Assembly: GCF_001418225.1 (NCBI RefSeq) | Contig: NZ_LIPT01000002.1 | Span: forward strand, 496,001 to 560,000 | From: Pannonibacter indicus | GTDB lineage: Bacteria > Pseudomonadota > Alphaproteobacteria > Rhizobiales > Stappiaceae | Direction of reading: 5' to 3' | Length of the DNA: 64,000 nt | Position numbers and translations under genes: made by a program | Notes under the pieces: model-generated | The model's database searches: none | Seen by the model: the letters and a program-made list of their open reading frames with translations, nothing else | Told to the model about the DNA's origin: nothing | Shown: positions 32,919 to 47,608 of the stretch, piece by piece | Numbering within the stretch: position 1 is the stretch's first letter | Layout of the letters: every line of letters starts with the position of its first letter

Positions 32919-32934
32919 TTAACGCCACATTAAC
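32919..32934. promoter_or_regulatory. CtrA-type box upstream of the YjfB-like gene
   Basis: Exact TTAA-N7-TTAAC, the full consensus for the alphaproteobacterial response regulator CtrA. It starts 7 bases after the acyl-CoA-ligase stop and ends 42 bases before the ATG at 32976, the right distance for an activator site near -35. Seen: the motif. Inferred: CtrA binding. Confidence 0.7.
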
Positions 32935-32975: not shown

Positions 32976-33176
32976 ATGAGCAGCGCATCCATCGCAGCCG
33001 CGCTTGTCGGGGCAACACAGGCCCAGACCCAGCAGCAGCTTCAGGCCAAAATGCTGAAGATGTCGATGCAGCCGGATCAGGCCGTTGTCGCCATGCTGGA
33101 TCAGGCGGCCTCTTCCGGTTCAGGGTCTGCACCGCTTGCCGCAGGGACCGGCGGTTTCGTGGACGTTACCGTCTGA
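32976..33176 (+). CDS. Small YjfB-like (putative motility) protein
   Basis: 66 residues, no membrane segment or Cys. The N-terminal part (SIAAALVGATQAQTQQQLQAKMLKMSMQPDQAVVAMLDQA) has the Ser-Ile-Ala-x-x-Leu start and Gln-rich, Met-Leu-Lys-x-Ser-Met core typical of the YjfB/putative-motility family known from Bacillus. It ends G-T-G-G-F-V-D-V-T-V; two further small genes downstream end almost the same way. Good ribosome-binding site (AGAGAGG) and an upstream CtrA-type box. YjfB proteins have no proven molecular role; a link to flagella is inferred from their regulation in other species. Family call from pattern memory, not from a search. Confidence 0.75.
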   Translation: MSSASIAAALVGATQAQTQQQLQAKMLKMSMQPDQAVVAMLDQAASSGSGSAPLAAGTGGFVDVTV

Positions 33177-33321
33177 CCACCTTCAGATTCGCCTCATTCC
33201 GCTGGTGCGAGCACGGGCCAAGCCCGGTGCAGGCTGCAGCCTTGCGGCCGTTTACCAAGTTTTCCTCTGATAAAATCATCTGACGAAATTCAGGGCAGGG
33301 CTTTCGTAATATTTTGGCACC

Positions 33322-33351
33322 TTGATTCTATGATTAATCAATAGTTAATAT
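33322..33351 (+). promoter_or_regulatory. Candidate promoter with palindrome for the small tail-sharing genes
   Basis: TTGATT (33322-33327), an 18-base spacer and TAATAT (33346-33351) resemble a housekeeping -35/-10 pair. The spacer contains the perfect palindrome TGATTAATCA (33331-33340) and overlaps the CtrA-type box. Prediction only. Confidence 0.45.
33334..33348. promoter_or_regulatory. CtrA-type box upstream of the second and third small genes
   Basis: Exact TTAA-N7-TTAA (centre TCAATAG). It is about 195 bases before the ATG at 33543 and overlaps the candidate promoter's spacer and -10. A weaker companion, TTAA-N7-TTAG, lies at 33415-33429, about 115 bases before the same ATG. Confidence 0.65.
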
Positions 33352-33542
33352 ATGAATCCGGGGTGGCTGATTTTATTGAGCTATTTCTAGTCTAACCTAG
33401 CGTAATTCGACATTTTAATAAAATTTTAGATAATTTGCCTGATTCGTTGTAATGTTTGCTTTGGCTCCATGGCCTATCTTATCCTTCGTGGCATTCCAGC
33501 TATCTGGCCGTTCGCCGGCCGGTGCTCACGATGGAGGTTCAC

Positions 33543-33788
33543 ATGGCGGAGATCGAAAGCTACCGCGGTGTTCCAGCCTCTGCGCTGAGAGAGGAGAAGA
33601 CCCTCTCGGAACGCCGCACTGAACGGTTCGAGGAATTCAACGCCCGGCGCAGCGCCATGCTGGCCGAAGCGGTGAACCGCGAAGCGGACAGGAAGGCGAA
33701 CCGCGCAGAGCAATTGAGTGATGATGCTGATCGCATCGCGCGCCGTGCCGTCCTTGGCATGGGCAACCGCGTCGATGTGACGGTCTGA
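33543..33788 (+). CDS. Small charged helical protein with the shared VDVTV tail (1)
   Basis: 81 residues, not recognised as a named family. Most of it is a strongly charged Arg/Glu/Ala-rich segment (residues 15-68), likely one long helix or coiled coil. It then ends G-M-G-N-R-V-D-V-T-V, nearly the same decapeptide as the YjfB-like protein upstream and the next small protein. The ATG at 33543 follows GGAGG at 5 bases spacing; an ATG at 33531 overlaps that site and is less likely. No signal peptide or membrane helix. Probably in one transcript with the next gene, 57 bases downstream. Confidence 0.75.
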   Translation: MAEIESYRGVPASALREEKTLSERRTERFEEFNARRSAMLAEAVNREADRKANRAEQLSDDADRIARRAVLGMGNRVDVTV

Positions 33789-33845
33789 TCCCGGCATTCT
33801 CCGGGCTCCGGCTGGAGCAGGCATCAACTGGAAAGGGCTTGAGTT

Positions 33846-34070
33846 ATGGTTGCAATTTCCGGAACTGCATCGGCTGACCTCGCTGCGCCGCGGGTGCGTC
33901 CTGATTATTCCGCCAGGGCTGCGCAGGAAACAGCCCGGGTTGAGCGTCAGGCCGCAGAACGTCAGACGGAAGAGCGCCGCGAGACCGTGCAGGAGACGTC
34001 CCGCCAGGAAGAGCAGCGCGAAAGCCGCAAGATTCCCGGTCTCGGCAATGCGGTGGACATCACCGCCTGA
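33846..34070 (+). CDS. Small charged helical protein with the shared VDITA tail (2)
   Basis: 74 residues. A short polar start (MVAISGTASADLAAP), then a highly charged, Gln/Arg/Glu-rich stretch (residues 16-61) that looks like a single helix, and the tail G-L-G-N-A-V-D-I-T-A. Outside the tail it shows no clear alignment to the preceding gene beyond composition. GAAAGG lies upstream of the ATG. A strong terminator 30 bases after the stop closes the unit. Function unknown; the shared tail suggests a common partner, secretion route or protease. Confidence 0.75.
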   Translation: MVAISGTASADLAAPRVRPDYSARAAQETARVERQAAERQTEERRETVQETSRQEEQRESRKIPGLGNAVDITA

Positions 34071-34099
34071 CGGTGGACGGCCTCATTAGCAGATCCATG

Positions 34100-34127
34100 G
34101 CCCCGCTCCGGCGGGGCTTTGTCTTTT
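34100..34127 (+). terminator. Intrinsic terminator of the small-gene unit
   Basis: 7-bp stem GCCCCGC/GCGGGGC, 4-base loop, then TTTGTCTTTTT on the plus strand, 30 bases after the third small gene. Confidence 0.9.
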
Positions 34128-47593: not shown

Positions 47594-47608
47594 TTAACGC
47601 TTCATTAA
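47594..47608. promoter_or_regulatory. CtrA-type box in the ftsE / zinc-ribbon divergent promoter
   Basis: Exact TTAA-N7-TTAA (centre CGCTTCA). 42 bases from the ftsE start and about 140 from the start of the zinc-ribbon gene. The same 42-base distance is seen for the box at 32919-32934. CtrA control of cell-division genes is known in alphaproteobacteria; here it is predicted. Confidence 0.65.

Follow-up and report, generated by a model that had tools for sequence, protein, structure and literature searches.

The closest described counterpart of the peptide examined here is the C-terminus of FliK, the flagellar hook-length control and export-switch protein. In Salmonella, the five C-terminal residues of FliK matter for the specificity switch, and a suppressor mutation, A405V, falls on the very last residue (PMC10965912). 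The last five residues of FliK have been proposed to bind and eject the C-terminal domain of FlhB (PMC13344023). In Caulobacter, FliK-C without LDIRI loses both the overexpression effect on motility and flagellin and its degradation by Lon (PMC8545394). LarA (DUF1150), a Lon regulator, resembles the proteins described below in being small and alphaproteobacterial, and its five C-terminal residues form a functional peptide (PMC10665427). YjfB, the putative motility family closest to one of our three proteins, was termed uncharacterized in a 2024 paper (PMC11607428).

A FliK-like C-terminal peptide on three small proteins

We analysed a 64,000-nucleotide stretch of the Pannonibacter indicus genome (the window), in which three tail-bearing ORFs are packed within 900 bp; their lengths and endings are as the initial annotation had described them (Table 1). 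The locus lies outside any flagellar cluster, with an AMP-dependent ligase gene and a TlpA-like gene as neighbours, and no convincing Pfam/NCBIfam family was found for genes 2 and 3. AlphaFold2 models of proteins 1 and 3, whose confidence is low (pLDDT 58 and 64), predict a single helix over residues 3-47 with a low-confidence tail for the former, and a helix over residues 17-60 with a tail devoid of structure for the latter.

Table 1. Features of the three-gene locus, in window coordinates
Feature	Coordinates	Strand	Basis
CtrA-type box TTAACGCCACATTAAC, ~42 bp upstream of gene 1	32919..32934	+	TTAA-N7-TTAA
Gene 1, YjfB-like, 66 aa, tail GTGGFVDVTV	32976..33176	+	ORF; PF14070 comparison
Gene 1 tail codons and stop	33150..33176	+	pattern match
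Promoter-like element and AT palindrome TAAAATTTTA (33419-33428), upstream of gene 2	33407..33434	+	consensus scan, not above chance alone
Gene 2, charged, 81 aa, tail GMGNRVDVTV	33543..33788	+	tail pattern match 33762-33788
Gene 3, charged helical, 74 aa, tail GLGNAVDITA	33846..34070	+	tail pattern match 34044-34070
Terminator-like hairpin with T tail, 3' of gene 3	34099..34118	+	consensus scan only

When the tail and its stop codon were back-translated into a degenerate DNA pattern, exactly three matches were found in the 4.17-Mb genome, all at this locus; as the same loose pattern reversed gave four matches genome-wide, the weight of this result rests on the clustering and the reading frames and not on the genome-wide count. 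Within the 64-kb window, the three matches compare with 0.04 expected from shuffles.

Some 30 genomes of Stappiaceae, from Pannonibacter, Roseibium/Labrenzia and Stappia, carry the three-gene block in the same order and with the tail on each gene. The conservation scan comprised 32 loci, from these genera and from a few MAG records, and the sequences compared, with those of the window included, numbered 31 for gene 1, 27 for gene 2 (plus four ending in L) and 32 for gene 3. Counting back from the last residue (-1), G(-8) is invariant across all three genes in these loci, position -4 is always D or N, and A, V, I or L occupies position -1. All three reading frames are under purifying selection (pN/pS 0.15-0.52); constraint on gene 3 is much stronger in the tail than in the rest of the protein (0.145 for the last 12 codons vs 0.43), and in genes 1 and 2 tail and body are under similar constraint. 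Genes 2 and 3, on whose conservation as open frames the initial annotation had relied, keep their frames, order and tails in the Stappiaceae loci. In Pannonibacter carbonis (L049/L006; about 4900-5600 in L049), genes 2 and 3 are kept and gene 1 was not found at the site.

Outside this block, a loose tail pattern gave mostly chance matches in 199 genomes of the order, and a stricter pattern was substituted. In 385 alphaproteobacterial genomes, the strict pattern matched 12 times and its reversed control not at all. Eleven of the 12 matches end small ORFs, the remaining one being an 11-residue frame (chance). Several of these ORFs have unrelated bodies, YjfB-like, Ser/Gly-rich and Pro-rich ones being among the set, and FlhA is present in all five better-quality non-Stappiaceae genomes that carry them. 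At four loci from two alphaproteobacterial families (L085, L087, L088 and L091), a small ORF is flanked by ccmI-like and NUDIX genes, names that were assigned by eye; the bodies of these ORFs have diverged beyond recognition, and the ending PGLGRLIDLTV or SGIGRTIDISV is retained. In the flhA regions of Stappiaceae (L195-L206), an 80-92 aa protein of the form MAKIGN...SRLNILV adjoins flhA and bears a related tail (RLNILV/RINVVI-like); one genome has its gene in tandem (L206, from 1283 and 1649).

Comparison with YjfB, FliK and FlaG

Gene 1 aligned with PF14070, the YjfB model, over model positions 1-57 with a score of 22 bits (E=1.7e-4). When the genome was searched with PF14070, there was no match at E 0.001, and gene 1 was found at E 0.0017. 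The gene 1 protein is like YjfB in its length, its N-terminal pattern and its full tail, although its score is under the cut-off (22 vs 27 bits), whereas proteins 2 and 3 have no PF14070 match and only the tail in common with the family. No credible match was found when the YjfB-like profile was compared with solved structures. The C-terminal pattern of YjfB, G-x-x-[VILM]-[DN]-x-x-[AV], is present in all three proteins and ends 28/28 of the proteobacterial members readable outside the window, which are somewhat selected for the tail, since the profile contains it. The tail is the C-terminus of the whole YjfB Pfam family and hence not unique to the three-gene set. The initial annotation, which had considered the set to be undescribed, was right in part: gene 1 is YjfB-like and its tail is included in the PF14070 model, and genes 2 and 3 match no family convincingly. 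Our survey covered 299 genomes of the phylum, 31 of them with YjfB matches; FlhA was present in 30/31 of these genomes vs 207/268 of the others.

The same ending is found on FliK, including a FliK-like ORF of the host that lies beside a flgD-like gene and ends in GRSGVDIRI. The FliK set was collected from the surroundings of flhA in other genomes by an iterated profile search and completed with E. coli K-12, antisense shadow frames being excluded. All of its members (26/26) end in [VIL][DN]xx[AVI], and the products of genes 1-3 match the same pattern in the same C-terminal register (3/3), in a match that spans five residues only and is partly post hoc, as FliK and FlaG were compared once the motif was known. 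FliK ends in LDIRI/LDIQV-like peptides in Alphaproteobacteria and in VDYYA, IDYFA or VDIFA in Gammaproteobacteria (GVDIFA in E. coli). In family f230, an aromatic residue at -2 and A at -1 are found in FliK as well as in YjfB. The background of FliK-type endings is 1/108 among annotated E. coli genes, the one being FliK itself in a set with 44/108 flagellar or chemotactic genes, and 0/241 among neighbouring Stappiaceae ORFs.

The likeness consists of a C-terminal [VIL]-D-x-x-[AVI]-COOH behind a Gly-containing stretch, in the form of VDVTV, VDVTV and VDITA in proteins 1-3. However, FliK is several hundred residues long and comprises a ruler part and a folded switch domain, both of which are absent from the three proteins, and none of the 66-81 aa proteins matched a Pfam/NCBIfam FliK model for the hook-length C-terminal switch domain. 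Furthermore, position -2 is mostly R/K/Q in alphaproteobacterial FliK and T/S in the three proteins, and the G-x-G fixed at -10/-8 in the three tails is not a fixed feature of FliK. Given the T/S at -2, the G-x-G hinge and the absence of a switch domain, the three proteins are not to be called FliK.

FlaG (PF03646) was chosen for comparison because of its ending. Most members end in G(-8)-x-x-hydrophobic(-5)-D/N(-4)-x-x-A/V(-1), so that the register is loosely shared: G(-8) was found in 25/29, D/N(-4) in 19/29 and A/V(-1) in 27/29, one of 30 loci having been excluded because it was misread in frame. FlaG differs in its larger domain and in positions -3 and -2, mostly K/A and Q/K, and PF03646 had no match in the host genome, nor in the three proteins. 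FliF was considered as a further tail carrier and rejected: in several relatives it ends in WL[DN]xAA (uncounted), but without a hydrophobic residue at -3 or a Gly hinge. In a literature search with few subscription journals, we found no paper linking YjfB, FlaG and FliK by their ends. The claim of the initial annotation that the tail is kept by selection at the protein level is supported, the same ending being present both on FliK and on small proteins unrelated to one another.

A conserved CtrA-type box upstream of gene 1

TTAA-N7-TTAA is the CtrA consensus, and CtrA controls flagellar genes in Alphaproteobacteria. In 23/31 Stappiaceae, the 150 bp that precede gene 1 contain such a box and, in 375 kb of Stappiaceae loci, 22/23 of all TTAA-N7-TTAA sites fall within this distance of gene 1. 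The host genome contains 20 TTAAN7TTAAC sites (control 7); the gene 1 box is among them, and another lies upstream of a flagellin-like gene. Among the flagellar regions of related genomes, at least one locus has the box upstream of fliF, and at nine Stappiaceae loci it lies 23-45 bp upstream of the ATG of the flhA-adjacent small tail gene. No conserved CtrA box was found for genes 2 and 3, and in relatives none was seen in the 150 bp preceding gene 2. Further TTAA-N7-TTAA sites in the window lie between genes 1 and 2 (33334-33348, ~200 bp upstream of gene 2) and between divergent FtsE-like ABC ATPase and zinc-ribbon-like genes (47594-47608).

Genes 2 and 3 look like one unit sharing the terminator-like hairpin. 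The AT palindrome is located ~115-125 bp upstream of gene 2, similar AT motifs occur in most relatives, and AAATTTT is present in 17/27 of the gene 2 upstream regions; it is a possible regulator or promoter site of the gene 2-3 unit. Sigma54 and sigma28 promoter consensus sequences upstream of genes 1 and 2 were also considered and were not conserved.

Possible roles of the tail

We hold it to be an even proposition that genes 1-3 code for small flagellar proteins with a FliK-type C-terminal peptide, composed of a Gly-rich hinge and [VIL]-[DN]-[VI]-x-[AVI]-COOH. This reading builds on the shared sequence, its C-terminal register, its rarity and the CtrA-type box of gene 1, whereas docking at FlhB, export and turnover by Lon are inferred. 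The peptide would dock where the last five residues of FliK act, on the FlhB C-terminal domain of the flagellar type III export gate. The small proteins may pass the export gate as mini-clients, or they may adjust when the switch occurs by competing with FliK, and their helical bodies could serve as spacers or as binders of other partners. Since Caulobacter FliK has a Lon degron in these five residues, a short life, presumably through turnover by Lon, is probable for the small proteins too. Against this reading stand the location outside any flagellar cluster and the lack of a conserved CtrA box at genes 2 and 3. Gene 2 was matched in only 14/37 of the Stappiaceae tested, all of which have FlhA (37/37); hence, at least gene 2 is dispensable for flagella, and the presence of flagella cannot discriminate within this family. 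The initial annotation had proposed a recognition tag for secretion, a protease, an adaptor or a polymer cap. A tag role is supported by the occurrence of the ending on unrelated small proteins and by FliK, to whose last five residues published work assigns a part in the export switch and in degradation by Lon (PMC10965912, PMC13344023, PMC8545394), which makes secretion and a protease good guesses; the polymer cap found no support.

The tail could instead be primarily a C-terminal Lon degron, the three proteins being Lon-limited regulators that resemble FliK through shared proteolysis only. Caulobacter FliK-C escapes Lon once LDIRI is removed (PMC8545394), the five-residue C-terminal degron of LarA is sufficient for Lon (PMC10665427), and valine ranks as the second-best C-terminal residue for Lon (PMC11986505). 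However, D/N(-4) is near-invariant in the tails, whereas the described degrons are hydrophobic, often His-ended and weakened by Asp (PMC10665427, PMC11986505). LarA itself differs in the His at its end and offers no evidence of D/N at -4 (PMC10665427), and a LarA-type degron, which ends in His, was rejected on sequence for tails that end in V/A/I/L. The ending is also kept on FliK, on YjfB and loosely on FlaG across proteobacteria, and it is limited to a few proteins per genome, not general to Lon substrates. We consider a primarily proteolytic role rather unlikely. Turnover by Lon and a part in the switch could both apply, because Caulobacter FliK reportedly uses the same five residues for both.

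It is quite improbable that the tail docks another flagellar or polar partner that is not shared with FliK, such as FlhA, a chaperone or a PDZ-type domain. The Gly residues at -10 and -8 and the T/S at -2 set the tails apart from FliK, and ligands of this kind are usually C-terminal strands with a hydrophobic last residue. On the other hand, the last five residues of FliK are matched in the exact C-terminal register against a background of ~1% or less.

The three families align with one another essentially through the tail alone: in profile comparisons, the join between genes 2 and 3 (95% probability) was confined to 18 columns of the tail, genes 1 and 2 were joined at the C-terminal end, and genes 1 and 3 gave a weak, longer alignment. 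Although this last alignment, the adjacency of all three genes, their similar size (~65-90 aa) and the mainly one-helix models of proteins 1 and 3 would suit diverged paralogues of one YjfB-like ancestor, with a C-terminus slower to decay and a tail of no special role, this is very unlikely given that the adjacent pair of genes 2 and 3 is alignable in the tail only and that the same ending occurs on unrelated small ORFs of other families and on FliK.

Small flagellar proteins with a FliK-type peptide could belong to a wider scheme, which we advance tentatively and with rather less than even confidence: FliK, YjfB, FlaG and tiny lineage-specific proteins may carry one C-terminal code read by the export gate, and stand-alone carriers may compete with or precede FliK, thereby timing the hook-to-filament export switch. 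With its ending also present on several small proteins of unrelated sequence, the FliK peptide acquires a family, and YjfB proteins, so far uncharacterised, and their relatives gain a testable function. The tails are natural variants for mapping the receptor site and for separating switching from Lon turnover, and they bear on how the last five residues of FliK flip the export switch in flagellar assembly.
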